From: Phormidium tenue FACHB-1050
GTDB taxonomy: Bacteria; Cyanobacteriota; Cyanobacteriia; Pseudanabaenales; Pseudanabaenaceae
Direction of reading: 5' to 3'
Assembly (NCBI RefSeq): GCF_014696925.1
Contig: NZ_JACJQY010000038.1
Span: 1-57,465, forward strand
Length of the DNA: 57,465 bases
Below are positions 16,482 through 42,179 of the stretch, in pieces (within the stretch, counting starts at the first letter, position 1; the number at the start of each line of letters is the position of its first letter). The translations under genes were made by a program, and so were the position numbers. Below the pieces are notes generated by a model. The model had not been told where the DNA came from, searched no databases, and worked only from the letters and a program-made list of their open reading frames with translations.

Positions 16482-19400
16482 ATGGACAATTTACGACCTC
16501 AATCTATAACTGCGCCGCAGTTACTGGATTGTGCTGAAGTAACGACTGCGATCAATGTTTTAATTGTGGACGACTCGGAAAGCGATCGCGTTAGTTACTT
16601 GCGTTATTTGCAATCAGACTCAGAGCGCTCTTATCGGATTATCGAGGCAGAAACGTTAGAAGAAGGGCTGGAATTGTGGCGATCGCAGCACCCAGATGTT
16701 GTATTACTGGATATCAATCTGCCCGATGGCGACGGCTTGGAATTTTTAGAAGCTATTGGTAATGAGCAATTAATCAATAAATTGCCTGTGATCATGTTGA
16801 CGGGATCGGGAGATGAGCGAATAGCTGTACGAGCGATGAAATTGGGCGCGGCGGACTATTTGGTAAAAGGGGATGTAACAGCGGTTTCGCTTTTAACCTG
16901 TATCGCTCAGGTGCAAGAAAATAGTTTACTCATCCAGCAACTTTTGCGATCGCAAAAGCAGCAAACGGTAATTGCCTCAATGGCGCTGCATATTCGGAGA
17001 GCGCACACATTTGAGGCTGTCTCCAATACGATTGTCCAAGAAATACGCAGCTTTTTAGTTGCCGATCGGGCGATCATTTACCGATTTAATCCCGATATGA
17101 GTGGAAAAATTGTTGCCGAGGCGGTTATTTCACCTTGGGAGTCATGCTTAAGTGCTCAAATTGAAGATACTTGCTTTCAGGAAAATCTTGGTGGGGAATA
17201 TCAAAGGGGTAAAGTCTTTGCGGCGAATGATATTTATGAAGCTAACCTGACGGAATGCCATATTCAACTCCTTGAAAGATTTCAGGTAAGTGCCAATCTC
17301 GTCGCCCCCATCTTGCTTAATGGTATGAATACCCTGTGGGGCTTGCTGATTGTGCATCAATGTGATGCTCCCCGCCAATGGCAAGAAGAAGATATTCAGT
17401 TATTGCATCAGCTATCCATACATTTAGCGATCTCCTTATATCAAGCCGAACTCTATCAAAATCTGGAAAGCCTGAATTCCTCGCTGGAAGAGAAAGTACA
17501 GGAACGGACTAAAAAACTACAATTGCAATCCCAAGTTTTAGAAGAGATTCATGATGGTGTGGTGACAACCGATCTCAATGGCACAATTCTCAGTTGGAAT
17601 CTTGGCGCAGAGAAACTCTATGGCTATACAGAGGCTGAGGTGTTAGGACGGAATGTAGCCTTTATGTATGAAGATGCTGAAGCTCTAGGAGCAGAGGTGA
17701 TTGTGCCTCTGTTAGATAAGGGTAGCCATGCAACCGAAGTTGTTATCTTTTCTAAATCAGGAAAACGCATCTACATTAGCTTGCGACTTTCTGTGGTCAA
17801 AGATGAACAGGGCAACATTACCCATTTGATTGGTTGTGCTAATGACATTAGCGATCGCAAACGTGCCGAACAAGAACTTCAGCAACTCAATCAAGAGCTA
17901 GAAACCAAAGTCTTAGAACGCACCCAAGAACTAGCACAGGTTAACAGTCTCCAACTAGCTATCCTAGAAAGTGCTAATTACGCAATCATTTCCACCGACT
18001 TAGATGGCATCATTCAGACTTGTAATCATTCCGTTGAAAGGATGCTGGGTTATAGTGCCTCAGAACTGATTGGCATCACACCTGATATACTCCACGATCG
18101 CCAAGAGATAATTGACAAAGCCGCATCTCTCTCTGCTGAACTGGAGCAGGATATTCCTGCTGGGTTTGAAGTGTTTATTGCCAAATCCCGTCGAGGTATT
18201 GTTAGTGAACAAGAATGGACTTATATCCGCAAAGATGGTTCTCGCTTTCCTATATTGTTATCAGTCACGGCTCTTAAGAATGACAACCAACAAATTATAG
18301 GCTTCTTAGGTATTGCGAAAGATATTACTCAGCGAAAACAAGCAGAAGAAGCGCTAAGAGCAAGCGAACGGCGTTTTGTATCTTTGGCAGCAGCAGCTCC
18401 TGTAGGAATTTTCCGTATTGATCAAAACAATAACTGTACCTATGTCAATGAATTTTGGACTCAAATTACAGGACAAGAAGCCGATGTCGCTCTAGGCTAT
18501 GGATGGCTGGAGACCATTCATCCCGATGATCAAGAGCAAATCCATCAGAAATGGACTCAAGTTCTCATTCAACAAGCACCTTATCAAGGTGAGGGAAGAG
18601 CCATCAGACCAGATGGAACAATTAGTTACTACTATTGCCAAGCCTTACCTGAAATTGATGAAGATGGTAATTTTATCGGCTACATTGGCACATTAACCGA
18701 TATTAGCGATCGCAAACAAGCGGAAATCCAGCTAAAGCATATTAACGAGGAACTACTTCGCGCTACCAAGCTCAAGGATGAATTTCTTGCCAACATGAGC
18801 CACGAACTCCGCACCCCACTAAATTCGATCTTAGGGCTGTCTAACGTTCTGGGAGAGCAGGTTTTAGGCTCACTCAATGAAAAGCAATTAAAGGCGATCG
18901 GTACAGTCGAGTCAAGCGGCGAACATCTTCTCTCCCTAATTAATGACATTCTCGATCTATCAAAAATCTCATCAGGGATGATGGAACTAAATGTTGAATC
19001 AGTCTTAGTCAAAAATCTCTGTGATTCTAGTCTGGTCTTTGTCAAACAGCAAGCATTTCAAAAGCAAGTGCAAATTGCTAGCAACATTCCTAAAAATATA
19101 AACAAGATCAATGTCGAAGAGCGTCGCATCAGGCAGGTTTTAATCAATCTGCTCACCAATGCCGTCAAATTCACTCCCAGTGAAGGGCAAGTAAATCTTC
19201 TAGTTGCAGTTGGTAGAGGCGATACATGGCAAGGAGAGGCGACAATTCCCCAGCGCATCAAACTGATGAATTCACCGATGATCGTATTTCAAGTCGTAGA
19301 TACTGGCATTGGTATTGCCGCCAACGATCTACAACGACTCTTTCAGCCCTTCGTGCAAGTTAGCAGCAGTCTCAATCGTCAGTACGAAGGCACTGGTTTA

Positions 19401-19943
19401 GGGCTAGCCCTAGTCAAGCAGATTGTCGAACTACATGGCGGTCAGGTCATGGCTGAGAGTGAAGTCGGCAAAGGTAGCTGTTTCTCAGTTGCCCTACCCT
19501 ATGAAATGTCCCACTCTAGCGCTCCAGAATCCCCAACAGTTTCGACAACTTTACCGCCAGTGGTCATAGATCCTGATAATGCGCCGCTGATTTTACTCGC
19601 CGAAGATAACGAGGCAAATATCCAAACCTTCTCTTCTTATCTGACCGCAATCAACTACCGCATAGTGACTGCCAGAAATGGAGAAGAAGCCGTTGCTATG
19701 GCAAAAGCAGAAATCCCTGACATCATTCTCATGGATATTCAAATGCCAGACATGGATGGATTAGAAGCGATCGCTCTAATTCGTGCTGACGCATCAATTG
19801 CCGCAATTCCGATAATTGCCCTGACGGCTCTTGCGATGGAAGGCGATCGCGAAAGATGTCTAGCGGCGGGAGCCAATGAATATCTGTCTAAACCCATCAA
19901 GTTCCGTCAACTTAATTCCGCAATTCAGCGAATTTTGACATAG
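16482..19943 (+). CDS. Hybrid histidine kinase with DXCF cyanobacteriochrome-type GAF domain (first of three)
   Basis: Domain order in 1153 residues: REC (about 25-145, acceptor D77 in LLDINLP), GAF (about 165-320), coiled linker, three PAS/PAC domains (about 350-465, 485-620, 628-755), HisKA (HELRTPLNS near 775), HATPase (about 880-1010) and a C-terminal REC (from about 1037, MDIQMP). The GAF has C231 in DTCF and C259-H260 in ECH, 28 residues apart, and WGLLIVHQC followed by PRQW. This is the arrangement of DXCF cyanobacteriochromes, where the CH cysteine binds the bilin and the DXCF cysteine adds a second thioether to shift absorption to shorter wavelengths. Light sensing is therefore inferred. 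It appears soluble, with no membrane helices. Two more similar genes follow. Confidence 0.88.
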   Translation: MDNLRPQSITAPQLLDCAEVTTAINVLIVDDSESDRVSYLRYLQSDSERSYRIIEAETLEEGLELWRSQHPDVVLLDINLPDGDGLEFLEAIGNEQLINKLPVIMLTGSGDERIAVRAMKLGAADYLVKGDVTAVSLLTCIAQVQENSLLIQQLLRSQKQQTVIASMALHIRRAHTFEAVSNTIVQEIRSFLVADRAIIYRFNPDMSGKIVAEAVISPWESCLSAQIEDTCFQENLGGEYQRGKVFAANDIYEANLTECHIQLLERFQVSANLVAPILLNGMNTLWGLLIVHQCDAPRQWQEEDIQLLHQLSIHLAISLYQAELYQNLESLNSSLEEKVQERTKKLQLQSQVLEEIHDGVVTTDLNGTILSWNLGAEKLYGYTEAEVLGRNVAFMYEDAEALGAEVIVPLLDKGSHATEVVIFSKSGKRIYISLRLSVVKDEQGNITHLIGCANDISDRKRAEQELQQLNQELETKVLERTQELAQVNSLQLAILESANYAIISTDLDGIIQTCNHSVERMLGYSASELIGITPDILHDRQEIIDKAASLSAELEQDIPAGFEVFIAKSRRGIVSEQEWTYIRKDGSRFPILLSVTALKNDNQQIIGFLGIAKDITQRKQAEEALRASERRFVSLAAAAPVGIFRIDQNNNCTYVNEFWTQITGQEADVALGYGWLETIHPDDQEQIHQKWTQVLIQQAPYQGEGRAIRPDGTISYYYCQALPEIDEDGNFIGYIGTLTDISDRKQAEIQLKHINEELLRATKLKDEFLANMSHELRTPLNSILGLSNVLGEQVLGSLNEKQLKAIGTVESSGEHLLSLINDILDLSKISSGMMELNVESVLVKNLCDSSLVFVKQQAFQKQVQIASNIPKNINKINVEERRIRQVLINLLTNAVKFTPSEGQVNLLVAVGRGDTWQGEATIPQRIKLMNSPMIVFQVVDTGIGIAANDLQRLFQPFVQVSSSLNRQYEGTGLGLALVKQIVELHGGQVMAESEVGKGSCFSVALPYEMSHSSAPESPTVSTTLPPVVIDPDNAPLILLAEDNEANIQTFSSYLTAINYRIVTARNGEEAVAMAKAEIPDIILMDIQMPDMDGLEAIALIRADASIAAIPIIALTALAMEGDRERCLAAGANEYLSKPIKFRQLNSAIQRILT

Positions 19944-19951
19944 ATTTAATC

Positions 19952-20031
19952 GCCCCCTAGCCCCCAATTCTGGGGGAACAAGAAAATAAAATTCTTTCAA
20001 AGTCCCCCCAGAATTGGGGGATTTAGGGGGC
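19952..20031. repeat. CCCCCTAG-type inverted repeat after the first hybrid kinase
   Basis: Two offset G/C-rich arms (from 19952, CCCCCAATTCTGGGGG, and from 20004 to 20031) pair. The sequence belongs to the CCCCCTAGCCCCC...GGGGGATTTAGGGGG family that also occurs, in frame, inside the 5-oxoprolinase gene near 54719. Confidence 0.75.
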
Positions 20032-20174
20032 TAAACAACTAGATCTTTAAACGAAATCCTAAGTATTATTTGATTTTTAAATAGTTTCTTAAGCTTAAAT
20101 TGAGATACAAAAATTTTTTGTGAGATAATTAAAGAAGATGCGTTAATAATTATGAAATAAATACAAGTCATCTT

Positions 20175-23100
20175 ATGGCTGATCAACTCTTGCAATCAAA
20201 TATAACCCTGTTGATAGTCGATGGCTCGGAAAGCGATCGCGTAATTTACTCACGTTATTTGCAATCAGACGTAGAGAAAAACTATCACATTATCGAAGCG
20301 GAAACGTTAGAAGCAGGGCTAGAAATATGCCGATCTCAGCCGCCTGATATTGTACTGCTCGATCTAAACTTGCCATATGGCGATGGCTTGGAATTTCTAG
20401 AAGCTATAAATATTGATCATGCAGGAAAGCGTTTTCCAGTGATTATGTTGACGGGGCAGGGAAATGAAGAAAAGGCGGTAAATGCCATGAAATTAGGGGC
20501 GGCTGACTACTTGGTGAAAGGGGATATCACGGCAAAACTGCTCACTATTACGGTTAATCATGTATTGCGAGAATCTGAGCTAAGTCGTCAACTTTCGCGA
20601 TCGCAACAACAGCAAATATTAACCTCCGAAATCGCACTGCGGATTCGCGAATTTCTAAATTTAGAAGATATCTCAAGAGCCATTGTTAAAGAGGTGCGTC
20701 AATTTATTAAAGCCGATCGCGCTGCTATCTATAAATTCACCCCAGATATGAGTGGCAATATGGTTGCCGAAGATATCGTCGCCCCTTGGCAGTCTTGCTT
20801 AAATGTGCAAGTTAACGATTCTTGCTTTCTCGGAAATCTTGGTGATGCATATTGCGAGGGCAGAATTTTCGTTGCTAATGATATTTATGCGGCTAACTTG
20901 ACAGCCTGTCATCTACAACTGCTCGAAAGATTTCAAGTCCGCGCCAATCTGGTAGTGCCGATCCTGTTGCCAAATGAGAACAAACGCATTTTATGGGGGC
21001 TGCTAATTTTGCATCAATGCTCGTCTCCAAGAATTTGGCTAGAGTCAGATGTTCAGCTAATTCAACAGCTAGCGGTGCAGCTATCGATTTCTATTAAACA
21101 AGCGATCGCCTATCAAAAAGTTGAAAATGAATTAGCAGATCGCAACCGCACCGAGCAAGAACTACTAAAACTCACTCAATCTCTAGAAGTAAAAGTCAGA
21201 GAACGCACCCAAGAACTATGGCAAGTTAATCAACTATTACAAACCGTCCTTGATGCTATCCCATTGTCTGTATTTTGGAAAGATCGCCAATCTATTCTTT
21301 TAGGATGCAATCAACTATTTGCCATAACTAGTGGAAAGAACTCGCCCTTGGAAGCAATTGGTAAAAGCGATTTTGATCTTGCCTGTACCGAAGACGAAGC
21401 TCTTGCTTATCTTGCTGACGATCGACAGGTGATGGAAACTGGCTTAGGGAAACTGAATATTGAAGAGCATATTACCTTGACATCTGGTGAGCAGCAATGG
21501 ATACAGACTAATAAAGTTCCTCTACGAGATGCTTCGGGGAATGTGGTAGGAGTGGTGGGGACGTTTCAGGATATTAGCGATCGCAAACAAGCCGAATTGA
21601 AACTACAGATAATAAGCGATCGCCTAGCTTTGGCACTCAGTTCTGGAGCGATCGGCTATTGGGAATGGGATATTGAGCAGAACTCTCTTGCTTGGGATGC
21701 TCAGATGTATAAACTGTATGGAGGTGCAGAAGCAACTAATTCCCGTATGGCTTACGAGACTTGGGCAAACACAATCCATCCCGACGATCATAAAGCTACT
21801 GAAACTTTACTCCAAGAAGCAGTTTTAGGGCTTACCGATTATGACTGTGAGTTTCGAGTCATTCATCCCGATCACAGTATTCACTTCATCAAAGCCTATG
21901 GAAAGGTTGAAAAGAACGCGCAAGGTAAGGCTCAAAGTATGATTGGGGTTAACTTTGATATTAGCGATCGCAAACAATCAGAAAGTCAGTTAAAACTAGC
22001 TAATCAAGAACTTCTCCGTGCTACCAAGCTCAAGGACGAATTTCTCGCTACCATGAGCCACGAACTACGCACACCGCTAAATTCCATCTTGGGACTATCA
22101 GAATCTCTTAAAGGCGAGATTTTGGGTTCAATAAACGACAATCAATTAAAGGCGCTCTCTATAGTCGAGTCAAGTGGCGAACATCTGCTATCACTGATCA
22201 ATGACATTCTCGACCTATCAAAAATCTCATCAGGCATGATGACCCTAGATATGGCATCAGTCCCAGTCCAAAATCTCTGTGATACCAGTCTGCTCTTCGT
22301 CAAACAGCAAGCATTTAACAAGAGAATCCAAATCCATAGCAATATTCCTGCTCATATAAACAACATCAATATCGATGAACGTCGCATCAAACAAGTATTG
22401 ATTAATCTGCTCACAAATGCCGTCAAATTTACTCCCTGTGAAGGAAAAATCAATCTCTTTGTTGCGATCGGTAGCGGCGATACATGGCAGGGAGAAGCAA
22501 CAATTCCCCAACGACTTCAAGACATGAATTCACCGATAATCCTATTTCAAGTAGTAGATACGGGCATTGGTATCTCTGCTAAGGATTTGCAAATGCTCTT
22601 TCAGCCCTTTGTACAGGTCGATAGCGCCCTTAATCGTCAGTACGAAGGCACTGGTTTAGGGCTAGCCCTAGTTAAGCAAATTGTGGAACTGCATGGCGGT
22701 CAGGTCATGGTTGAGAGCGAAGTTGGAAAAGGTAGTCGCTTTACCGTCGCCCTACCCTATGAAATGTCAGAATCTAATGCGATCGCCCCTGTCCTAACTT
22801 CGACCACTTCATCATCACTGGCAATAGCTCCAGACAATGCACCGCTTATTTTATTAGCAGAAGACAACGAAGCAAATATCCAAACCTTCAGTTGCTATCT
22901 GACAGCCATCAATTACCGCGTCATCATCGCTCGCAATGGTCTAGAAGCGATCGCCCAAGCCAAAGCCAACCTGCCCGATATCATCCTCATGGATATTCAA
23001 ATGCCTATTATGGATGGGCTAGAAGCAACTAAGCAAATCCGTCTCGATCCTAACTTGGTTAACATTCCCATCATTGCGCTCACGGCTCTAGCAATGGAAG

Positions 23101-23210
23101 GCGATCGCGAAAGATGTCTAGCCGCAGGAGCCAATGAATATCTCGCTAAACCCATCAAGCTCCACCAACTTAATTCCGCAATTCAGCAAATTTTATCAAA
23201 ACTTTTGTGA
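20175..23210 (+). CDS. Hybrid histidine kinase with DXCF cyanobacteriochrome-type GAF domain (second)
   Basis: Domain order in 1011 residues: REC (about 10-128, acceptor D63), GAF (about 145-315), two PAS/PAC domains (about 350-470 and 480-605), HisKA (HELRTPLNS near 635), HATPase (about 740-870) and REC (about 890-1008). The GAF has C217 in DSCF and C245-H246 in ACH, again 28 residues apart. The N-terminal REC reads LIVDGSESD, while its neighbours read LIVDDSESD, so one residue of the acidic Mg-binding pocket is lost and phosphorylation may be weak. The kinase and C-terminal REC parts are close to those of the flanking kinases, which points to tandem duplication. Confidence 0.88.
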   Translation: MADQLLQSNITLLIVDGSESDRVIYSRYLQSDVEKNYHIIEAETLEAGLEICRSQPPDIVLLDLNLPYGDGLEFLEAINIDHAGKRFPVIMLTGQGNEEKAVNAMKLGAADYLVKGDITAKLLTITVNHVLRESELSRQLSRSQQQQILTSEIALRIREFLNLEDISRAIVKEVRQFIKADRAAIYKFTPDMSGNMVAEDIVAPWQSCLNVQVNDSCFLGNLGDAYCEGRIFVANDIYAANLTACHLQLLERFQVRANLVVPILLPNENKRILWGLLILHQCSSPRIWLESDVQLIQQLAVQLSISIKQAIAYQKVENELADRNRTEQELLKLTQSLEVKVRERTQELWQVNQLLQTVLDAIPLSVFWKDRQSILLGCNQLFAITSGKNSPLEAIGKSDFDLACTEDEALAYLADDRQVMETGLGKLNIEEHITLTSGEQQWIQTNKVPLRDASGNVVGVVGTFQDISDRKQAELKLQIISDRLALALSSGAIGYWEWDIEQNSLAWDAQMYKLYGGAEATNSRMAYETWANTIHPDDHKATETLLQEAVLGLTDYDCEFRVIHPDHSIHFIKAYGKVEKNAQGKAQSMIGVNFDISDRKQSESQLKLANQELLRATKLKDEFLATMSHELRTPLNSILGLSESLKGEILGSINDNQLKALSIVESSGEHLLSLINDILDLSKISSGMMTLDMASVPVQNLCDTSLLFVKQQAFNKRIQIHSNIPAHINNINIDERRIKQVLINLLTNAVKFTPCEGKINLFVAIGSGDTWQGEATIPQRLQDMNSPIILFQVVDTGIGISAKDLQMLFQPFVQVDSALNRQYEGTGLGLALVKQIVELHGGQVMVESEVGKGSRFTVALPYEMSESNAIAPVLTSTTSSSLAIAPDNAPLILLAEDNEANIQTFSCYLTAINYRVIIARNGLEAIAQAKANLPDIILMDIQMPIMDGLEATKQIRLDPNLVNIPIIALTALAMEGDRERCLAAGANEYLAKPIKLHQLNSAIQQILSKLL

Positions 23211-23216
23211 CTTAAA

Positions 23217-23564
23217 ACTGATGTTACGTGTAAGGAGGATTGCCCTCACCCCCCAGCCTCCTCTCCCAGAGCTACAGTGTACACACAAGTCTAGATTTTG
23301 TCTGCACACATCGAGAACGCCCTGCACTCAAGTGCGGGCTAAGAGCTAAAACCCGTTAAAACGGGTTGATTTTGTTCAGTCATTGTCAGTCATCTTTAGA
23401 TGACTTTAGCTTTTAGCCAAGAACTTGAGTTCTTGGTGACTTGTGTGTACACGGTAGTCTCCCAGAGTGGAGAGGGGGAGCAAAATCCAGAAAATTCTTG
23501 TCCCCTAGCCCAAAGGGCGAGGGGCTAGGGGTGAGGGGCTTAGAAACTTCCACGTAACATCAGT
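23217..23564. repeat. Element with ACTGATGTTACGTG ends, carrying a nested insertion
   Basis: ACTGATGTTACGTG at 23217 and CACGTAACATCAGT at 23551-23564 are perfect inverted ends. The same ends flank a different body at 50361-50532. Inside lie CCCTCACCCC and GGGGTGAGGGGC arms of the CTCACCCCTAG repeat family, interrupted by the insertion at 23272. Confidence 0.8.
23272..23457. mobile_element. 186-bp MITE-like insertion with 10-bp target duplication
   Basis: It starts CTACAGTGTACACACAAGT and ends ACTTGTGTGTACACGGTAG, which are inverted with one mismatch. TCTCCCAGAG occurs directly on both sides (23262-23271 and 23458-23467) as a target duplication. The body contains GCCCTGCACTCAAGTGCGGGC and CCAAGAACTTGAGTTCTTGG hairpins (the first stated here by position 23321-23341). 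No ORF is present. Confidence 0.85.
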
Positions 23565-23618
23565 TAAAAAACAAACCTAGCAAAATTTTGAGGCTTAAAA
23601 AATAGCTAAATAGCTAAT

Positions 23619-23735
23619 TATAGCTGTCGCCAAGTGTATAAGAACATAAAACCCAAGAAGAGAATGGCGGCGCTTTGCGCCGCCATTCTCTTCTTGGGTT
23701 TTGCTTTTGTCCTAACACAATCGACGGCAGCTATA
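23619..23735. repeat. Complete palindromic element, 117 bp
   Basis: Left end TATAGCTGTCGCC, right end GGCAGCTATA. Core arms 23648-23673 and 23677-23702 form a 26-bp stem with loop TTT and copy-specific middle GAAGAGAAT. With the copy at 15068 this defines the family's full length. Confidence 0.9.
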
Positions 23736-23747
23736 TAATTAAAACCC

Positions 23748-23800
23748 AAACCCAGAATCCTCTCCCGCCCGCGCATCGGGCGGGAGAGGATTCTGGGTTT
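23748..23800. repeat. 24-bp perfect hairpin, related palindrome
   Basis: Arms 23748-23771 and 23777-23800 share AAACCCA/TGGGTTT ends with the main family, but the centre is CCCGCCCG rather than GGCGGCGC. It lies a few bases after the previous element. Confidence 0.75.
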
Positions 23801-23903
23801 TAAGGTTACTTATGCCTAGTTACTTACTATTTTGTGAATTTGTAAAAAGTGTCGTAGCATAATTATATGATTGATAATAATGGAATAGGCATCGATGTAG
23901 TGA

Positions 23904-26900
23904 ATGACTAATCAACTCTCGCAAACTGTTACCTTGTTGATTGTCGATGATTCGGAAAGCGATCGCGTCACTTATTTGCGTTATCTGCAATTAGACTCAG
24001 AAAATACTTACAACATTATCGAAACAGAAATGTTAGAAGAAGGGCTGGAAATGTGGCGATCGCAGCAGCCTGACATTGTTCTGATCGATCTGAATTTGCC
24101 CGATGGCGATGGCTTAGAATTTCTAGAAGCAATTAATGTAGATAACGCCAGAGATCGAGTTCCTGTGATTATGTTGACAGGACAGGGAAATGAAAAAATG
24201 GCTGTAAATGCCATGAAATTGGGGGCGGCTGACTATTTCGTTAAAGGGGACATTACAGCGAAATCGCTCACTACTACGGTTAAGCAAGTACTTCGCGAAA
24301 CTTTGTTAAGTCAGCAATTACGGCGATCGCAACAACAGCAAATATTAATCTCCGAAATCGCACTGAGGATTCGCGAATCTCTGAACTTAGAAGATATCTC
24401 GAATGCAATTGTTAAAGAGGTGCGTCAATTTATAAATGCCGATCGCGCCACTATTTATAAATTCACCCCTGATATGAGTGGCACAATTGTTGCCGAAGAT
24501 ATTGTCTCCCCTTGGCTGCCCTGCTTAAATATGCAGGTCGAAGATACTTGCTTTCTTGAAAATCTTGGTGGCGCATATCGTGAGGGCATGTTTTTTGTTG
24601 CCAATGATATTTATGCTGCTAATTTGACAGATTGCCATATTAAACTGCTGGAAAGGTTTCAAGTACGCGCCAATCTGGTAGTACCGATCCTCTTACCAAG
24701 TGTAGAACAGCAAACTACTTTATGGGGTTTGCTAATTTTGCATCAATGCTCAGCTCCAAGGATTTGGCAAGAGTCAGATATCCAGCTACTTCAGCAGTTA
24801 TCAGTGCAGTTGGCAATCGGCATTAAACAAGCGATCGCCTATCAACAAGTTCAAACCGAGTTGACAGAACGCAAACGAGTTGAGTTATCACTCTTAGAGC
24901 ACCAAGCAGAGCTAGAAGAACGCAATAATTTGTTAGAGATAACAAGTGCGGACTTGGAATGTAGTGTGGAAGAATTGAGGGTCACTACGGAAGACTTGAT
25001 CGCGCAGCATCGACAACTAGAATACGAACAGATCCGCTACCAAAACTTATTTAACTTTGCGCCTGATGGTTATCTGGTGACAGATATAACAGGTCGAATA
25101 GGAGAAGCAAATCAAGCAATCTTAGATCTGCTTGCCATTAGCCATGAGTCTATTTTAGGGAAACTCTTTTCTAGCTTTATTGACTCTGATCATGTGGAAC
25201 TTTTCTATAACCAATTTACGGCTCTATTATCTCAAAACAAGTTAGAAGTAACTTGGGAACTTATCATTGCTCCTTGTCGGGGCAAACCTTTCCCTGCCGA
25301 AATTGTCGCAACTAAAAATATTAGTTCTGACTCGAATAATGTTCAACTGTTATGGATAGTTCGTGATATCAGCGATCGCAAACGCGCCGAGCAAACGCTA
25401 CAACAACTTAATCAGTCCCTCGAAACAAAAGTCGCAGAACGAACCCAAGAACTAGGGCAAGTTAATCAACTATTACAAACTGTCCTTGACTCTTTCCCAT
25501 TGGCTGTATTTTGGAAAGATCGCAAAGCAATTCTTTTAGGATGTAACCAACTATTTGCCACGATATATGGGGTGAATTCCCCCTCAGAGTTGATTGGTAA
25601 AAGTACTTTTGAGGTTTGCTGTAACCAAGATGAAGCTCTAAATTATATTGTTGACGATCAACTGGTTATGGAATCTGGCATAGCGAAACTAAATATTGAA
25701 GAACCGATTACTATGCCATCTGGCGAACAGCAATGGTTACAGACCAATAAAATCCCTTTGCGAAATGCAGATGGGAATGTAATCGGAGTGATGGGAACTT
25801 TTCAGGATATTAGCGATCGCAAACGAGCAGAAATTGCCTTGCAACGTAGTGAAGACCGTTTTCGGCGAATGTTTGATTCTAGCGTCGTTGGTATGCTCTT
25901 TGCTGATTTTCAAGGACATATTACCGATGCCAATGATCGTTTTTTAGAGATGCTTGGCTATACCAGAGAAGATTTCCAAACTGGGGCGATTGATTGGATG
26001 GCGATGACTCCTCCTGAATACCTAGAGAAAGACTATGCTTGTATGGAAGATTTGATCAAATATCGTCAAATTGATCCTTGGGAAAAGGAATATTATCGCA
26101 AAGATGGTAGTCGTATCCCTATCATCATTGGAGCAGCTTTATTGCATGGTACGGATAATGAAACCATCTGTGTGATTCTAGATATTAGCGATCGCAAAAA
26201 TGCCGAAGCAGTCTTGAGAGCAAGTGATCAACGTTGGCAATTTGCCTTAGAAAGCGTTGGTGATGGCATTTGGGACTGGAATGCTCAAACCAATGAGGTC
26301 TTCTTCTCCCAGCAATGGAAAGCCTTGCTGGGATATGCGGATGATGAAATTGAGAATAGATTTGAGTCATGGGAAAATCTCGTCCACCCTGACGATATTG
26401 CTCAATCCTACGAGGATATCAATAAATGCCTCAATAGGGAAACTCTCTTTTACGAAAACGAGCATCGGCTACGATGTAAAGATGGTAGCTATAAATGGAT
26501 CTTAGCCCGTGGCAGAGTGTTTGAGTGGGATGTCAATGGTCATGCATTGCGAATGATGGGTACACATACCGATCTAAGCGCTCGCAAACAAGCTGAAGCC
26601 CAACTAAAACATATTAACGAGGAACTTCTCCGCGCCACCAAACTCAAGGATGAATTTCTCGCTAATATGAGCCACGAACTCCGTACACCGCTAAATTCTA
26701 TCTTAGGAATATCAGAATCTCTTCAAGAGGAGATTTTAGGCTCACTGAACGAAACACAATTAAAGGCGATCGCTACAGTCGAGTCAAGCGGCGAACATCT
26801 GCTATCCCTGATTAATGATGTTCTCGATCTATCAAAAATCTCAGCAGGGATGATCGAACTAGACATTGAATCAGTGTCAGTCATAAATCTCTGTAGTTCT

Positions 26901-27842
26901 AGTCTAGTCTTCATCAAGCAGCAAGCATTTAACAAGAGAATCCAAATCCATAGCTCTATTCCTCCACTTATAGATAACATCAACATCAATATTGATGAAC
27001 GTCGTATCAAGCAAGTATTGATAAACCTGCTGACAAATGCTGTCAAATTTACTCCAAATGAAGGAAGGATCACTCTGCTCCTAGCCGTCGGTAGCGGTCA
27101 TACATGGCAGGGAGAAGCGACAATTTCCCAACGACTTAGAGATATGAGTTCGCCGATGATTGTATTTCAAATTGTTGATACTGGCATTGGTATTACCCCC
27201 AACGATTTACAACGACTCTTCCAGCCATTTGTACAGATAGATAGCGCCCTCAACCGCCAGTACGAAGGCACGGGCTTAGGACTTGCCCTAGTCAAGCAAA
27301 TTGTCGAACTGCATGGTGGTCAAGTCACGGCGGAGAGTGAAGTTGGCAAAGGTAGTTGCTTCACATTTGCGCTGCCCTATGTTCCGTCTCAGCCTATCGC
27401 TTCCAAATCTAAACCAATTTCCACAGATTTACAAGATTCGCTCCCACGGGACGTACAGCCTGAAAATGCGATCGCGCCACTTATTTTACTCGCCGAAGAT
27501 AATGAAGCAAATATCCAAACCTTCATCTCTTATCTAAACGCCATTAATTACCGTGTCATCGTCGCCAAAAATGGAGAAGAAGCAGTTACCTTAGCGAAAG
27601 AAAATTCCCCAGATATCATTCTCATGGATGTGCAAATGCCAATTATGGATGGGCTGGAAGCAACCAAGCAAATTCGTCGCGATCCTAACTTAATTAATAC
27701 TCCCATCATTGCCCTAACTGCTCTGGCGATGGAAGGCGATCGCGATCGATGTCTGGCAGCAGGAGCTAACGAATATCTCAGTAAACCGATCAAACTCAAG
27801 CAACTTGCAACTGTAATTCAACAACTTTTATCGTCGCTTTAA
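23904..27842 (+). CDS. Hybrid histidine kinase with DXCF cyanobacteriochrome-type GAF domain (third, longest)
   Basis: Domain order in 1312 residues: REC (about 9-126, acceptor D62), GAF (about 143-313), coiled coil with long glutamate-rich stretches (about 325-385), four PAS/PAC domains (about 390-500, 525-640, 645-765, 770-900), HisKA (HELRTPLNS near 925), HATPase (about 1020-1160) and REC (about 1190-1310). The GAF has C216 in DTCF and C244-H245 in DCH, 28 residues apart, and WGLLILHQCSAPRIWQ. It differs from the first two by the coiled coil and extra PAS domains. Photoreception is inferred from the cysteine pair; the output is not encoded as a separate regulator nearby. Confidence 0.88.
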   Translation: MTNQLSQTVTLLIVDDSESDRVTYLRYLQLDSENTYNIIETEMLEEGLEMWRSQQPDIVLIDLNLPDGDGLEFLEAINVDNARDRVPVIMLTGQGNEKMAVNAMKLGAADYFVKGDITAKSLTTTVKQVLRETLLSQQLRRSQQQQILISEIALRIRESLNLEDISNAIVKEVRQFINADRATIYKFTPDMSGTIVAEDIVSPWLPCLNMQVEDTCFLENLGGAYREGMFFVANDIYAANLTDCHIKLLERFQVRANLVVPILLPSVEQQTTLWGLLILHQCSAPRIWQESDIQLLQQLSVQLAIGIKQAIAYQQVQTELTERKRVELSLLEHQAELEERNNLLEITSADLECSVEELRVTTEDLIAQHRQLEYEQIRYQNLFNFAPDGYLVTDITGRIGEANQAILDLLAISHESILGKLFSSFIDSDHVELFYNQFTALLSQNKLEVTWELIIAPCRGKPFPAEIVATKNISSDSNNVQLLWIVRDISDRKRAEQTLQQLNQSLETKVAERTQELGQVNQLLQTVLDSFPLAVFWKDRKAILLGCNQLFATIYGVNSPSELIGKSTFEVCCNQDEALNYIVDDQLVMESGIAKLNIEEPITMPSGEQQWLQTNKIPLRNADGNVIGVMGTFQDISDRKRAEIALQRSEDRFRRMFDSSVVGMLFADFQGHITDANDRFLEMLGYTREDFQTGAIDWMAMTPPEYLEKDYACMEDLIKYRQIDPWEKEYYRKDGSRIPIIIGAALLHGTDNETICVILDISDRKNAEAVLRASDQRWQFALESVGDGIWDWNAQTNEVFFSQQWKALLGYADDEIENRFESWENLVHPDDIAQSYEDINKCLNRETLFYENEHRLRCKDGSYKWILARGRVFEWDVNGHALRMMGTHTDLSARKQAEAQLKHINEELLRATKLKDEFLANMSHELRTPLNSILGISESLQEEILGSLNETQLKAIATVESSGEHLLSLINDVLDLSKISAGMIELDIESVSVINLCSSSLVFIKQQAFNKRIQIHSSIPPLIDNININIDERRIKQVLINLLTNAVKFTPNEGRITLLLAVGSGHTWQGEATISQRLRDMSSPMIVFQIVDTGIGITPNDLQRLFQPFVQIDSALNRQYEGTGLGLALVKQIVELHGGQVTAESEVGKGSCFTFALPYVPSQPIASKSKPISTDLQDSLPRDVQPENAIAPLILLAEDNEANIQTFISYLNAINYRVIVAKNGEEAVTLAKENSPDIILMDVQMPIMDGLEATKQIRRDPNLINTPIIALTALAMEGDRDRCLAAGANEYLSKPIKLKQLATVIQQLLSSL

Positions 27843-27868
27843 CTTTGAATTTTGATTAGAGGAAGCAT

Positions 27869-28015
27869 GTGGATACAGCCACAACCAAATCATCTAAATT
27901 ATCTGAACTAAAGTCAGCAATTATTCGTGAGCCGTTGATCGTTAATGCTGGTGCAACTGTCGGAGAGCTTATTGGACAGGTTACACCCGATCATTTGTCA
28001 TTTCATCAGGGTTAA
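27869..28015 (+). pseudogene. Remnant of a CBS-domain kinase 5' end
   Basis: A GTG-started frame of 48 codons, with AGAGGA just upstream, reads LKSAIIREPLIVNAGATVGEL. This closely matches the start of the CBS-domain kinase 1.2 kb downstream (LQSAIIREPLVVSADATVMEA). The frame ends after a few unrelated residues inside the 3' end of the minus-strand hydrolase. I read it as the abandoned start of a kinase gene, left behind by a duplication or insertion. Confidence 0.65.
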
Positions 28016-28621
28016 TCGGCTAAGTGCAAGCTGGCTCAAAAGCTCAGTGTGAGTGACGACATTAGCATACAGAGGAAAAATATTTTCGCAATAGAATGAC
28101 TGCTCAAATGCAGTTCTTGCGGAGGTGCAATCGGAGAGAATTGTAACCTGATATCCTTGTTCATGCGCGGAACGTCCCGTGGAATCGATACAAACTGAGG
28201 TAACAGTTCCCGCCAAAACGATATTTTTGATCGCATGTTGTTGCAGGATTTCGTTTAGATTGGTATTAACAAAGGCGTTAAAACCACGTTTCCCTGGGAC
28301 ACGCAAAATCCGATGTTTAAATGGATTCAATTCTTCAATAGTTTTCGATCCTTCCGTTCCTTCTTGAAACGCCCCCACCTCTTTAATTGTTTTGAGAATA
28401 CCAATTGGTTCAACTATTTCTTCATAACTAGACGTAAAGAAGATCGGTGTTTCTACAATCAATACTGAAGTGGGTTCCAAACAATCTAAGAGATGAATTG
28501 TATTAGATAATGCATTCGTAACTTTAGAAGACTCTTCAACTATGCCATGCAGAATTCCGTTAGGAGCAAAATAGTCATTTTGAAAACCGATCAGCAGTAA
28601 GGCTGTATTGTGCGTATCCAT
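27998..28621 (-). CDS. Isochorismatase-like cysteine hydrolase
   Basis: The roughly 207-residue protein has the cysteine-hydrolase triad of the isochorismatase superfamily: the aspartate in LLIGFQNDYF near the N terminus, the lysine in VPGKRGFNAF, and the cysteine in VLAGTVTSVCIDSTGRSAHE. Members hydrolyse isochorismate, nicotinamide, N-carbamoyl compounds or related amides. The substrate cannot be told from sequence. I start at the second ATG (28621, MDTHNTALLLIG), because the longer frame begins inside a repeat element. Its 3' end overlaps the remnant of a kinase gene on the other strand, so it may have been inserted between the third kinase and the fourth. Confidence 0.8.
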   Translation of the reverse strand: MDTHNTALLLIGFQNDYFAPNGILHGIVEESSKVTNALSNTIHLLDCLEPTSVLIVETPIFFTSSYEEIVEPIGILKTIKEVGAFQEGTEGSKTIEELNPFKHRILRVPGKRGFNAFVNTNLNEILQQHAIKNIVLAGTVTSVCIDSTGRSAHEQGYQVTILSDCTSARTAFEQSFYCENIFPLYANVVTHTELLSQLALSRLTLMK

Positions 28622-28646
28622 ATATACTTCTAGACAAAAAATGTTG

Positions 28647-28763
28647 TATAGCAATGTAAGTTTTGCTTAGGACATAAAACCCAAAAGATGAGTGGCGGCG
28701 CGAAGCGCCGCCACTCATCTTTTGGGTTTTGATTTGTCCTAGCTATCTCTTGCATTGCTATAT
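28647..28763. repeat. Palindromic element copy with TATAGCAATG ends
   Basis: Outer ends GTATAGCAATG and CATTGCTATATAC. Core arms 28676-28701 and 28705-28730 form a 26-bp stem with loop GAA and copy-specific middle AAGATGAGT. The outer sequence GCTTAGGACAT is shared with several other copies. Confidence 0.85.
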
Positions 28764-29040
28764 ACAGACTTTAAGAAAGGTAGATTATCTTACCCAGTTT
28801 ATGAAGTATATCAATCAGGATTTTATCTGAATTTGTCTAAATCACTATGTTTAGTTCTAAAATAAAAAACTGTATAGGTACTTCGGGGAATTCAACTTTG
28901 ATAAACGGCTCAATGTATTTAATGATGGGTGTTTCAGAGATCAAAGTCCTCCGAGGCTAAAACCATTGAGCTTCAAGCATTTGCCCTAGAACACCTCCCC
29001 AAAACGCTTATTGAGCCAATATATTTATCTGCAAAAATTT
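28764..29040. other. Spacer before the CBS-domain kinase
   Basis: No gene can be supported. A short open stretch of about 30 codons on the minus strand (about 28850-28941) has no start signal or recognisable match. Confidence 0.5.
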
Positions 29041-32000
29041 GTGATTACATCAGCACTTACATTACTAGAGTTGCAATCAGCTATTATTCGTGAACCCTTA
29101 GTGGTGTCTGCCGATGCAACTGTCATGGAGGCGATCGCCTTAATGAGTAGTGGGCGATCGCAATGTGATGCGGAAAATCATAGCGACAATCATCTGCAAC
29201 AATTTCAGCAAGAGGCAAGATCTAGCTGTGTCTTGGTATTAGAAGATGAAAAGTTGATCGGTGTAATAACTGAGCGCGATGTGGTACGCCTCAGCGCTCA
29301 ACAGCAAAACCTCAATCGTCTATTAGTGCGTGAGGTGATGGCACATCCTGTGGTTACATTGCGCGAATCTGACCTTACAGATTTGTTTTTAGCAGTCAAT
29401 CTACTCCAGCAATACCACATTCGCCATTTGCCACTTCTCGATGAGCAAGATCTCCTCGTGGGAATGGTAACTCACGAAAGTTTACGCCAAATTTCTCGCC
29501 CCATTGATCTGATGCGGCTGCGATTGGTGTCGGAGGTGATGACTCCTAATGTAGTGTGTGCTGCCTCTGATAGCTCGATGTTGGCGATCGCGCAAATGAT
29601 GGCAGAGCAGAAAATTAGTTCGGTGATGATTGTTGAGACATGCATTACTGATACCTCCCTACAGATTCCTGTGGGCATAGTGACCGAGCGAGATGTTGTG
29701 CAGTTTCAAGCTCTAGGCTTAAACCTTGATACCTGTATCGCGTATACGGTGATGAGTACGCCGATTTTTGCGGTCAAGCCAGAGGATAACCTGTTGACGG
29801 TGCAGCAAATTATGGAGCAACGGTTGATTCGACGCTTGGCGGTGACAGGTGAATTTGGCGAGCTATTAGGAATCGTTACTCAGACCAGTTTGCTCCAAGC
29901 CTTAAATCCGACCGAAATCTATAATTTAGCCAAGATTTTAGAAGCAAAAGTAGAACAACTAGAATCAGAAAAAGTAACTCTGCTAAAACATCGCAATATT
30001 GAATTAGAACGTCAGGTTCATGAAAGAACCGTATTTTTAACGGAAGCAGAGAAAGCGCTACAAAAAATCAATCAATCATTAGAGTTAACAGTTCAAGAGA
30101 GAACTCAAGAGCTATGGCAAGTCAATAAACTGCAACGAGCAATTCTTGATGGTACGGATTACGCGATTATCTCCACTGACTTAAATGGCATTATTCAGAC
30201 CTTTAATGCTGGTGCGGAAAAAATGTTGGGTTATAGCACAGAAGAAGTTATCGGTAAGATCACGCCCGAAATCTTCTTCGATCATCAAGAACTTATCAAT
30301 AGGGCTTCTGATATTTCAACCGAAGGAGAAAAAAATACTTGGGGGTTTAGTTCATTCTTATCTATGGCGAATCAAGGGCTTCTTAGTGATGAATGGACGC
30401 ATATTCGTAAAGATGGATCGCGCTTTTCTGTAGAGCTATCGGTGACACCCCTTAATGACGATAATGGGAAAACGATTGGCTTTTTAAGTGTCAGAAAAGA
30501 TATTAGCGATCGCAAACAAGCTGAAAAAGCCTTAAAAGAAAGCGAACGTCTTTTCTCAATGTTGGTCTCTACTTCTCCTGTTGCCATTACTCGCTTCGAT
30601 CTTAGCCCATTAGACTGTATCTACGTCAACGAACGTTGGAGCGAAATGACAGGAAGATCCGTCGCATCAGCAATGGGGAGAGGATGGCTCGACGCAGTGC
30701 ATCCCGATGAGCGAGATATGATCAGAGGCTTGACAGAACATGAGTTCTTCTCGCCTTCATCTCGTCAATTTATGTTGACTGGGGAAGGCAGACATCTTCG
30801 CCCAGATGGCACTATTAACTGGTATTTTTCTCAACTTGTCAAAGAATTCAATGATAGCGGGGAAGTCACTGGCTACATCGGAACGTTAACTGATATTAGC
30901 GATCGCAAACAAGCCGAATTGGAACTACAGAAAGTAAGCGATCGCCTAGCCTTGGCACTTAATTCTGGAGCGATCGGCTGTTGGGAATGGGATATTCAAC
31001 AGAACATTCTTGTTTGGGATGATCGGATGTATGAACTGTATGGATACTTAAAAGAAACTAACTCCCATATGCCTTATGAAGTCTGGGCAAACGCAGTACA
31101 TCCCGATGATCTTCACACTACTGAGACTATACTCCAACAAGCCATATTAGGACAATTAGAATTCGATTATGAGTTTCGAGTCATTCATCCCGATCAAAGT
31201 ATTCACTTCATTAAAGCCTATGGAAAGGTTAAACGAGATAGTCAAGGTAATGCTGAAAGTATGATTGGGGTTAACTTTGATGTTAGCGATCGCAAACAAT
31301 CTGAAACAAAATTGCAGCTAGCTAACGAAGAACTGAAGCGTGCAACCAGACTCAAAGACGAATTTCTCGCCAATATGAGCCATGAACTGCGAACACCCCT
31401 CAATTCAATTTTGGGAATGAATGAGGGGCTACAGGAAGGAATATTTGGCCGTATTAATGAGCGCCAAATTCAAGTACTGCAAACCATTGAGATTAGCAGT
31501 ACGCATCTTTTAACATTGATTAATGACATTCTCGATGTTGCCAAAATTGAGTCTGGACAAGTCACGCTAGAGCTAACAGCGACAGATATCAACAGCCTCT
31601 GCAATTCGAGCTTAGCATTTATCAAGCAGCAAGCATTAACCAAGCGAATTCAATTAATACCTAGAATTCCTAAGAATTTGCCAGAAATAATGCTAGATGA
31701 AAGGCGGATTCGACAAGTCTTAATCAATCTACTAAATAATGCCGTTAAATTCACTCTAGAAGGAGGGACTATCACGTTAGAAGTATCGCAAGTTCAACTT
31801 GAAAGTAGTACAACTAATCTAACGCCTCTAAATTACATAAAGATAGCCGTGATTGATACTGGAATAGGCATCTCGGCAGAGAACATCCAGAAACTGTTCC
31901 AACCCTTTATCCAAATCGATAGTGCTCTGAACCGTCAATATACTGGCACGGGATTGGGGTTGGCTTTAGTCAAAAGACTTGTAGAACTTCATGGAGGAAC

Positions 32001-32520
32001 CATAGAACTGACAAGCGAGGTGGGAGTCGGTAGTTGCTTTGCGATTAATCTTCCCATTAATATCGGCGATCCAGCAATCGAAGAACAAACTGAGCATGAC
32101 TTGTCAGGAGAGTCTCAGATCGGTCAAAGCCAAACTGAAGGACTAATTTCACCCTTAATTTTGCTTGCCGAAGATAACGAGGCTAATATTGCTACATTCT
32201 CCAGTTACCTCGAAGCTAAGGGCTACCGCATTTTATTGGCAACTGATGGACAACAGGCGATCAATTTTGCTAAAGCAGAGCAGCCCGATTTGATTTTGAT
32301 GGATATCCAGATGCCAGTTATTGATGGATTAGAGGCAATTAAACAAATTCGTCTCGATCCCAATTTAGTTAATATTCCGATTATCGCCTTAACGGCTTTG
32401 GCAATGGAAGGCGATCGCGATCGATGTCTAGCCGCAGGAGCGAATGACTATCTCTCTAAACCCATCAAGCTCAAACAACTTAATCTCTTAATTCAGCAAG
32501 TTTTAGGCTCCGTGAAATAA
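29041..32520 (+). CDS. Hybrid histidine kinase with four CBS motifs
   Basis: Domain order in 1159 residues: four CBS motifs in two pairs (about 10-290, with GVITERDVVRL, GMVTHESLRQ, GIVTERDVVQF and GIVTQTSLLQA), a coiled linker, three PAS/PAC domains (about 360-495, 500-630, 640-765), HisKA (HELRTPLNS near 787), HATPase and a C-terminal REC (MDIQMP). CBS pairs usually bind adenosine nucleotides, so energy state may be the input. No GAF is present, unlike the three kinases upstream. The open frame begins at TTG 29011, but GTG 29041 aligns with the remnant gene at 27869 and is preferred. The kinase core is a close paralogue of the neighbours. Confidence 0.87.
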   Translation: MITSALTLLELQSAIIREPLVVSADATVMEAIALMSSGRSQCDAENHSDNHLQQFQQEARSSCVLVLEDEKLIGVITERDVVRLSAQQQNLNRLLVREVMAHPVVTLRESDLTDLFLAVNLLQQYHIRHLPLLDEQDLLVGMVTHESLRQISRPIDLMRLRLVSEVMTPNVVCAASDSSMLAIAQMMAEQKISSVMIVETCITDTSLQIPVGIVTERDVVQFQALGLNLDTCIAYTVMSTPIFAVKPEDNLLTVQQIMEQRLIRRLAVTGEFGELLGIVTQTSLLQALNPTEIYNLAKILEAKVEQLESEKVTLLKHRNIELERQVHERTVFLTEAEKALQKINQSLELTVQERTQELWQVNKLQRAILDGTDYAIISTDLNGIIQTFNAGAEKMLGYSTEEVIGKITPEIFFDHQELINRASDISTEGEKNTWGFSSFLSMANQGLLSDEWTHIRKDGSRFSVELSVTPLNDDNGKTIGFLSVRKDISDRKQAEKALKESERLFSMLVSTSPVAITRFDLSPLDCIYVNERWSEMTGRSVASAMGRGWLDAVHPDERDMIRGLTEHEFFSPSSRQFMLTGEGRHLRPDGTINWYFSQLVKEFNDSGEVTGYIGTLTDISDRKQAELELQKVSDRLALALNSGAIGCWEWDIQQNILVWDDRMYELYGYLKETNSHMPYEVWANAVHPDDLHTTETILQQAILGQLEFDYEFRVIHPDQSIHFIKAYGKVKRDSQGNAESMIGVNFDVSDRKQSETKLQLANEELKRATRLKDEFLANMSHELRTPLNSILGMNEGLQEGIFGRINERQIQVLQTIEISSTHLLTLINDILDVAKIESGQVTLELTATDINSLCNSSLAFIKQQALTKRIQLIPRIPKNLPEIMLDERRIRQVLINLLNNAVKFTLEGGTITLEVSQVQLESSTTNLTPLNYIKIAVIDTGIGISAENIQKLFQPFIQIDSALNRQYTGTGLGLALVKRLVELHGGTIELTSEVGVGSCFAINLPINIGDPAIEEQTEHDLSGESQIGQSQTEGLISPLILLAEDNEANIATFSSYLEAKGYRILLATDGQQAINFAKAEQPDLILMDIQMPVIDGLEAIKQIRLDPNLVNIPIIALTALAMEGDRDRCLAAGANDYLSKPIKLKQLNLLIQQVLGSVK

Positions 32521-32526
32521 GCGATT

Positions 32527-32573
32527 CCAAAATAGTGTAAGGCGGCGCGAAGCGCCGCCTTACACTATTTTGG
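32527..32573. repeat. Palindromic element core hairpin after the CBS kinase
   Basis: Arms 32527-32548 and 32552-32573 pair perfectly with loop GAA. The stem middle ATAGTGTAAGG is close to that of the copy at 15068. It starts six bases after the stop codon, between convergent genes. Confidence 0.8.
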
Positions 32574-32594
32574 TTTGTAGCTATAGCTATAAAA

Positions 32595-33791
32595 TTACAC
32601 TTTTGGTAATTGGTACTGAGCGATAATTCGTTTGGCAAATTCAGGGACGTGGGCTTCTAGTTTTTTGGGATAGTTGCGGCGCACGTAGAGGTAATTGCGG
32701 ACAAAGTGGGAATCGATGGAAAAGCGCCCATATTCCAAACCTTTTGGCCCAATTTTATTCACTACAAAGCTAATGATCCAAGCTAGCCAAATTGGTAATG
32801 TTACCGCTTGATCGTATGCCGAAATACCCTGTTGAACAGCTGCACGGCGATCGCCTCCAGAGATCACAGGCTGAGTCTGCAATTGATCCTTGATTAACTC
32901 CAGCATCTCTTTGCCAGTCTCATTTCGTACTACGATCCATTGCCAGCCAAAGGTTGCACCCATATAGCCCACGACAATATCCGCGAGGGCATTGGTGTAG
33001 TCAAAGCAAGTCATGCAGGATGGCGCAAATACATCCTTGAGTTCCTTAGTATTTAAGCCAAAGAAAGGTACTAACTCCGTCGAACCGTCCGAATGCTTGA
33101 AATGTACATTAAAGTCCTGCATGAATTCGTAATGCACTACCGTTTCAGGCGATCGACTGGTGGTGTCCAGAAATTTCTGTAAGCCGTCTCTTGTGACATT
33201 ATCTGTACAGGGTGTCCCCAATACATACAGCTTTTCTAAGCCCAGTTCTTTCTCGACAGTTCGCAGCGCTTGAATTTGGCAGCCGACACCGATCGCCAAT
33301 AATCTTTTAATTCCCGACTGCTCAATCTGTTCTAATACTGAGAGATTGGGTGAAAGAGTCGGTTTATTAACCCGTGCGGCAAGAATTTCCTCACGATTTC
33401 GGGCAATTACAGGCTGTGGTTTAAAGCGATCGTCTTTGCTTGATTGCACACATACCACACCTTCGACTAGCCCTTTTTCGAGCATCTCGATCGCTAAAGT
33501 GGACACAATTCCTGTCCATTGCGCCCCCTCTATGGGTTCAGTTTTGCGGGCGGCGATCATTTCTTGATGCACACCGAAATAAAGTTCTTTTTCGTTATCG
33601 AGATCACGCGATCGACCGTGGGACTGAGTTTCGAGTTCATCGATATGCTGCGTGATAAATGCACAAGCATCTTTGACGTAATGAATGTAATAGGTATCAC
33701 AGAGACCACACTCACTGCATAATTCTTTAGCAGGGCGACGCTGTGTATCCGCAAGAGCTTTGGCTTTGCGATGGGATGGGACAACCGACAT
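32595..33791 (-). CDS. bciB: Ferredoxin-dependent divinyl (proto)chlorophyllide 8-vinyl reductase
   Basis: The 398-residue protein belongs to the F420-hydrogenase beta-subunit-like family that includes cyanobacterial BciB, which reduces the 8-vinyl group of chlorophyll precursors. Fe-S ligands are visible in CSECGLCDTYY (about 24-34) and PSCMTCFDYTNALAD (about 258-272). GVGCQIQALR and GTPCTDNVTRDGLQKFL are the flavin-site motifs. The C-terminal segment SFVVNKIGPKGLEYGRFSID is typical of the cyanobacterial group. The related 7-hydroxymethyl chlorophyll reductase of plants is an alternative, but the bacterial context favours BciB. It is a single gene, convergent with the CBS kinase. Confidence 0.85.
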   Translation of the reverse strand: MSVVPSHRKAKALADTQRRPAKELCSECGLCDTYYIHYVKDACAFITQHIDELETQSHGRSRDLDNEKELYFGVHQEMIAARKTEPIEGAQWTGIVSTLAIEMLEKGLVEGVVCVQSSKDDRFKPQPVIARNREEILAARVNKPTLSPNLSVLEQIEQSGIKRLLAIGVGCQIQALRTVEKELGLEKLYVLGTPCTDNVTRDGLQKFLDTTSRSPETVVHYEFMQDFNVHFKHSDGSTELVPFFGLNTKELKDVFAPSCMTCFDYTNALADIVVGYMGATFGWQWIVVRNETGKEMLELIKDQLQTQPVISGGDRRAAVQQGISAYDQAVTLPIWLAWIISFVVNKIGPKGLEYGRFSIDSHFVRNYLYVRRNYPKKLEAHVPEFAKRIIAQYQLPKV

Positions 33792-38533: not shown

Positions 38534-38594
38534 AAAGGTTTGGCACTTGTGCTAAATCTCTCTAGTGCCGAATCTCTCTATTGAGATTTATATT

Positions 38595-40580: not shown

Positions 40581-40626
40581 ATGTAAAGCAATTGATTAGC
40601 AATTTTATTGGTTGTTAAAGTACTCC

Positions 40627-40681
40627 AAAACCCAAGAATCGAGTGGCGGCGCGAAGCGCCGCCACTCGATTCTTGGGTTTT
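40627..40681. repeat. Palindromic element copy
   Basis: Core arms 40627-40652 and 40656-40681 form a perfect 26-bp stem with loop GAA and copy-specific middle GAATCGAGT. The right outer part ends with CTATAGCTATA near 40709, which is the family end. It sits between convergent genes and abuts the six-gene accessory operon. Confidence 0.85.
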
Positions 40682-40713
40682 ATGTCCTAATGCAGGTGAC
40701 TATAGCTATATCC

Positions 40714-41846: not shown

Positions 41847-41853
41847 TTTTGAT

Positions 41854-42168: not shown

Positions 42169-42179
42169 ATTTAATACTT

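Follow-up and report, generated by a model that had tools for sequence, protein, structure and literature searches.

An imported isochorismatase-like hydrolase gene without its signalling partner, next to a kinase remnant, in Phormidium tenue

The short open frame at 27869-28015 of the window (the whole stretch of 57,465 nucleotides analyzed here) is probably a fossil made of two pieces of one histidine kinase, here called kinase A, and not the start of the complete kinase B further on. It is abutted by a block of the Pseudanabaena biceps type that carries an intact hydrolase gene minus the signalling gene with which it is normally paired. Taken by itself, the stump reflects no more than common genome decay, and the adjacent hydrolase is of greater interest. 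The frame, its pieces, and the surrounding kinases are the following.

27869-28015, plus strand: open frame with a GTG start, 48 amino acids, listed among the open reading frames of the window.
27869-27961, plus strand: stump piece 1, the GTG and first 31 codons of kinase A, of the CBS type, by alignment to G022 L083:11922.
27962-27990, plus strand: stump piece 2, a 29-base PAS-domain segment (GELIGQVTP) that continues the reading frame of piece 1.
27991-28015: stump piece 3, part of the next block and lying antisense to the first bases of the kinase gene that is the hydrolase's partner.
23904-27842, plus strand: neighbouring hybrid kinase (by Pfam), ending 26 bases before the stump, with the same neighbour in G022.
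29018-29040, plus strand: native sequence upstream of kinase B, with homology to G009 beginning at 29018.
29041-32520, plus strand: kinase B, a complete hybrid histidine kinase with CBS, PAS, HisKA, HATPase, and receiver domains (by Pfam) and its own GTG start.

When 26 genomes of the genus were searched with the stump frame, it matched an intact kinase of G022 (E 1e-10). Piece 1 together with the 49 bases upstream of it (27820-27961) differs from the start of this gene at 7 of 142 bases, which bears out the original prediction of an abandoned kinase start in a rearranged locus. The G022 gene that has this start encodes a kinase of 908 residues and occupies the same place, next to the same two neighbours. 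Two further parts of the prediction hold, namely the resemblance to the start of the CBS kinase 1.2 kb away (27895-27961 is repeated at 29058-29124 in kinase B, with 47 of 67 bases identical at a spacing of 1163) and the stump's own ribosome site, AGAGGA followed after five bases by the GTG. The frame had been taken as a kinase start over its whole length, and this stands for the first 31 codons; the bases 27962-27990 are an inner PAS piece and 27991-28015 are antisense, so that in this three-piece patchwork only those 31 codons count as kinase start.

Piece 2 agrees in 26 of 29 bases, in frame, with the PAS domain of a kinase in G019 (C87:1052-1080, GEVIGQVTPE), the E-value of 3e-4 being that for one genome while 26 genomes were searched with a match only 29 bases long. 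The corresponding place in kinase B of the window (30241) shares 20 of 29 bases, and 20 of 29 was also the most that any of six shuffled versions attained in 1.9 Mb of sequence. Piece 2 begins directly where the G022 homology ends and runs exactly up to the hydrolase block. A Pfam scan of the 48 residues gave no family, and the CBS, kinase, ATPase, and receiver domains are absent. Judging from these alignments, the stump is a remnant of a CBS-type hybrid histidine kinase and not a member of that family.

The original prediction further held that the stump and the complete kinase were one gene split by an insertion. This was not borne out, because the start region of kinase B is native: the same type of start is found in G009, G021, G002, and G020, making five genomes with that of the window. 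The candidate reading of the stump as the lost start of kinase B itself was rejected for the same reason. The G022 kinase combines a stump-type start with a kinase B-like body (92.6% identity over 29077-30018 and 93.2% over 31288-32520), and the end of the stump homology and the beginning of the kinase B/G022 likeness coincide on a shared 10-base run at 27952-27961. Since the B-type start is more widespread, a fusion is the best reading of the G022 gene, which looks derived. We infer that kinases A and B were fused through the shared run with removal of what lay between them, which may have been an intact kinase A or an arrangement like that of the window; either fits. Of the relatives lacking the hydrolase that the prediction called for, G022 has the same start on an intact kinase and no hydrolase there, but this start/body fusion looks more like a later product than the state before an insertion. 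A genome with the same stump and a complete second kinase but no hydrolase, the case that would speak against the prediction, was looked for and found in none of the 26 genus genomes.

These genes belong to a tandem hybrid-kinase array at 15184-33791 of the window, flanked by a sigma-factor-like gene on one side and an FrhB-like gene on the other, with kinase-like matches at 16319-19936 and frames at 20175-23210, 23904-27842, and 29041-32520. In eight relatives (G021, G012, G020, G023, G025, G014, G004, and G011), the sigma-factor-like and FrhB-like matches lie about 250 bases apart or less. Comparison of G022 L083:11922-14648 with window 29041-32520 shows shared CBS and kinase-receiver ends and different middles, GAF-like by eye in G022 and made of PAS domains in kinase B, which points to domain swapping inside the array. 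The array kinases have Ks of 0.17-0.24 to G022, compared with 0.49 for the flanking FrhB-like gene, so that array genes seem to have been exchanged between species. A Ks-based dating that placed the import later than the divergence from G022 was rejected, since kinases exchanged in this way, themselves at 0.17-0.24, do not allow the import to be placed relative to that divergence. As in ordinary gene remnants of tandem kinase arrays with miniature elements, the locus combines a truncated paralogue, a tandem array, and elements with inverted ends; unlike in these, two kinase remnants of different origins and on opposite strands abut at 27990/27991.

To the right of this boundary lie the imported block, the features inside it, and the element at its far end.

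27991-28875: imported block of the Pseudanabaena biceps type, with the palindromic element inside and a right edge that extends a few bases into the second element.
27991-28016, minus strand: partner-kinase remnant, the first 26 bases of the gene with the ATG now ATT, by alignment to G014, G004, and G016.
27998-28621, minus strand: isochorismatase-like cysteine hydrolase, 207 amino acids, intact, stop at 27998-28000, start at 28621.
28649-28762: palindromic miniature element (MITE-like) with 26-base perfect arms in a TA-rich site upstream of the hydrolase gene.
28868-29017: second miniature element, which has inverted ends and lies precisely where the imported block meets the kinase B upstream region.

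Positions 27991-28650 and 28761-28875 are 94.8% and 88.8% identical, respectively, to one continuous stretch of G014 (Pseudanabaena biceps PCC 7429). The hydrolase gene has a Ks of 0.166 to this genome, where its product is 95% identical, and of 0.171 to G004 (Pseudanabaena sp. 'Roaring Creek'), compared with 0.175 between G014 and G004. Gene names used here, such as thermonuclease, ferredoxin, miaA, leuD, FrhB, and sigma factor, are our own reading of the sequence. Six control genes are far more diverged between the window genome and G014: Ks is 1.80 for the FrhB-like gene, 1.15 for miaA, 1.79 for the thermonuclease, 0.98 for the ferredoxin, 1.17 for leuD, and 0.66 for a 167-residue protein. 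Three control genes have Ks of 2.02, 1.32, and 2.08 (the last from only 33 codons) to G004, and all six have 0.39-0.83 to G022. With a hydrolase Ks of 0.17 against 0.66-1.80 in the controls, the block was acquired recently from a biceps-like lineage. Among the matches listed between window 37400-57300 and G014, the longer pieces are 66-82% identical and three short stretches (158-335 bases) reach 83-96%. One stretch of 335 bases, at 42181-42515, shares 94-96% identity with G014 and G004, a value well beyond that of most other pieces among the matches listed, and is perhaps another recent exchange.

In G014, G004, and G016, the hydrolase gene is followed by that of a PAS histidine kinase of 463-472 residues, whose start overlaps the hydrolase stop. 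The block carries only the first 26 bases of this partner gene, so that the hydrolase lost its partner either when the block arrived or afterwards. The change of the partner's ATG to ATT removed the old hydrolase stop, and the protein therefore ends in the new residues RLTLMK; the same change created the stop codon of the stump. The frame had been described as ending where the hydrolase gene begins, which reverses the orientation: it ends over the 3' end, as the hydrolase is encoded on the minus strand from 28621 down to its stop, and the two are arranged tail to tail. A search of the window genome for the partner kinase found no close match, the best being 56%, and the best match to its tag region (see below) had an E-value of 0.004, with none at E 1e-4. 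The hydrolase locus of the window is thus a broken member of a pair, with 26 partner bases left and no signalling gene directly downstream.

The palindrome at 28649-28762 was originally given a part in the rearrangement. This role was discarded, because the palindrome interrupts an upstream site of the hydrolase gene, within the block, that is whole in G014 and G004. By its inverted ends, several copies, intact site elsewhere, and TA-rich flanks, it qualifies as a miniature inverted-repeat element. Its relatives were found at nine further places of the window at E 1e-4, as copies or pieces at 2955-3044, 7319-7377, 10198-10274, 13378-13430, 15090-15163, 23641-23714, 40626-40690, 50309-50348, and 52408-52463. 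Lying 27 bases upstream of the hydrolase ATG, it may affect expression of the gene. The second element at the right join probably either came in together with the block or shows where the joining took place. Its query matched 20 of the 26 genus genomes, one of which (G009) matched the kinase-side part only; the element part itself is matched in 19 of 26, in many of them only as short pieces, and the window genome has one full copy and one 38-base piece. When an alignment of this copy and ten others was inspected by eye, no consistent target duplication was seen.

We suggest that kinase A once stood beside kinase B in the tandem array, that an internal loss then joined its codon 31 to the PAS segment, and that a foreign block from a Pseudanabaena biceps-like relative finally came to abut the stump, in what would be the order of events at this locus. 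The left join would have formed by illegitimate recombination and the right one at the miniature element.

Alternatively, G022 could retain an original one-kinase state, in which case the incoming hydrolase, second element, and B-type start replaced the middle of the gene and left the original start behind. The identical start and neighbours in G022 and its lack of a hydrolase there agree with this, as does the coincidence of the stump homology end and the onset of kinase B/G022 likeness on the same 9-10 bases. Yet the kinase B type of start occurs in five genomes, so that the combination in G022 looks derived, the middle of its kinase is also different, and in the three other genus genomes carrying the hydrolase it is not beside a B-type kinase; we regard this course of events as unlikely. 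Much less likely still is that the hydrolase gene left a former position near miaA for its present place in the same genome and lost the kinase. In G016, the hydrolase-kinase pair does lie between a thermonuclease-like gene and miaA, and the same slot of the window genome is without the pair, but by the Ks values given above the gene is far more similar to its G014 and G004 counterparts than vertical descent would allow, and it is present in only four of the 26 genus genomes.

It is highly improbable that the 48-residue frame encodes a working small protein, for instance a decoy for CBS kinases: it is open and has a start and a ribosome-site-like sequence, but it is a three-piece patchwork without a Pfam domain and occurs as a separate short frame in one of 26 genomes. 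An assembly error joining repeats would be equally surprising. The genome is a draft (5.6 Mb in 89 contigs) and there are short repeats in the window, but the joins at 27961/27962 and 27990/27991 lie outside any repeat found and the contig continues for about 28 kb on both sides. Our preferred reading therefore remains the kinase A fossil abutted by the imported block.

The hydrolase belongs to PF00857 (E 9e-35, 120.7 bits against a curated cut-off of 27). Residues D16, K111, and C144, which we take to be the catalytic residues of the isochorismatase-like family, are invariant in 30 aligned sequences and kept at 97-99% in an 80-sequence alignment from which the partial sequence L238 was left out. 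The predicted fold is confident (pLDDT 90.8), and the nearest solved structure is 3kl2, a putative isochorismatase of Streptomyces avermitilis, matched over the full length with a TM-score of 0.90 and 34% identity (phmmer E 1e-35). The fold and the Asp, Lys, and Cys residues are thus common to the window protein and the isochorismatase-like cysteine hydrolases. The NCBIfam equivalogs compared were all below their cut-offs: the biuret hydrolase BiuH (63.9 bits against 370), RutB (43.7 against 378), the nicotinamidase PncA (33.9 against 174), and YcaC (30.9 against 310). The window hydrolase is intact and a predicted enzyme that fits none of these named functions. Its pairwise Ka/Ks is 0.09-0.14, a value that mixes both lineages and hence is no proof of selection after import.

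Relatives were selected by hydrolase sequence alone; 83 were found and 80 kept, representing 79 distinct loci. A signalling gene lies directly downstream in 76 of the 79, in many phyla: there are 64 loci with a histidine kinase (one broken by a stop), eight with a GGDEF-EAL protein, four with a Ser/Thr kinase, two with a PAS-only protein, and one with none. In 66 of the 79 loci, a same-strand gene starting within 200 bases of the hydrolase stop resembles the G014 partner kinase by BLAST. This match extends to the ATPase domain in 53 cases and covers only the N-terminus and PAS domain in the other 13, which by Pfam are four histidine kinases (L182, L197, L216, and L219), the PAS-only protein of L231, and otherwise GGDEF-EAL proteins. 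Hence, the view that the downstream gene is always a kinase was ruled out, eight GGDEF-EAL proteins and one PAS-only protein being among these 13. The PAS-GGDEF-EAL proteins, often with a tag-like N-terminus, follow the hydrolase in L179, L181, L190, L193, L213, L220, L224, and L234. Among the 13 loci without a BLAST match, six have a histidine kinase (L191, L225, L226, L227, L237, and L238), L222 has histidine-kinase pieces with an in-frame stop between them, in L199 a PAS protein is truncated by the contig end, and L196 has no adjacent signalling gene. The Ser/Thr protein kinases follow the hydrolase in L210, L218, L223, and L228, all from Phycisphaerae or Phycisphaerales.

At 15 control loci of other isochorismatase-like genes, with flanks of about 1.5 kb or in some cases shorter, BLAST found no histidine kinase. 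The subfamily described here differs from these controls, which were compared for histidine kinases only, in having signalling genes as neighbours. Sensor kinases are known, as a general kind, to be encoded together with accessory proteins that bind a ligand or act as enzymes; the present case resembles them in that a protein handling a small molecule is encoded beside a signalling protein. It differs in that the partner is a hydrolase and the common feature is a short N-terminal tag, while the output domain varies. In the parts of the open-licence literature that were searched, no description of the hydrolase and signalling-gene pair was found.

Many of the adjacent proteins begin with a stretch like NELHTQIQYRLIEKLSESERRYREL (ELxxQIQYRLIEKL-like) despite their different output domains; the versions in the GGDEF-EAL partners are, for instance, ELQAQLNLKLLERLR or ELISQAQNRLIEHLR. 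A first, overly strict tag pattern matched 32 of 79. An 18-column profile built from 13 adjacent genes matched 43 of 78 adjacent genes at E 0.01, up to 13 of these matches being the profile's own seeds, and none of 1050 other frames of the same loci; the remaining 35 of the 78 had no match at this threshold. In the genus loci, it matched four of 302 frames, all of them partners, in G014, G004, G016, and G053 (the G004 and G014 loci also appear as L161 and L163). A looser pattern, which was chosen post hoc and is descriptive only, is found in 59 of 78 adjacent genes, five of 1050 other frames, and four of 302 genus frames. The adjacent kinases of L221, L225-L227, L229, and L230 have no tag by eye.

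Among 194 cyanobacterial genomes, the hydrolase is present in 15 and the tag region in 13, and the two lie within 350 bases of each other on the same strand in 11 (Fisher p 4e-13); the 44-residue query used here includes the start of the PAS domain, so that related partner kinases are picked up in addition to the tag. The hydrolase is without an adjacent tag kinase in G177, in the more distant G144, and in the window genome, and in G192 the tag of the adjacent kinase has diverged.

The hydrolase nearly always precedes a signalling gene across distant phyla, and the tag predicts the pairing while the output domain changes. In its home setting, the hydrolase is most likely the ligand-handling half of a signalling pair; it would bind or consume a small amide- or urea-like molecule and thereby set the activity of the neighbouring signalling protein, probably through the N-terminal tag of the latter. 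From these sequence comparisons, we tentatively propose, without holding it to be the likelier outcome, that the hydrolase subfamily and the proteins with ELxxQIQYRLIEKL-like tags form one module, in which the hydrolase docks on the tag and gates any output, and of which the window species lost the output half and kept the hydrolase. The proposed module is spread over cyanobacteria, proteobacteria, planctomycetes, verrucomicrobia, and others. If both proteins act together, an enzyme would serve as the input of kinases and c-di-GMP enzymes. In the window species, the hydrolase would have to work alone or with an unrelated partner, which makes this species a natural test of the hydrolase without its signalling partner.

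Finally, the tag-region match in G051 is weak (E 1e-4), and L256 (G095:C39:90500-94500) encodes a tag-bearing histidine kinase with no hydrolase within the 4 kb examined. In G053 and G069, which belong to the same genus as G095, the hydrolase and the tag kinase are both present.
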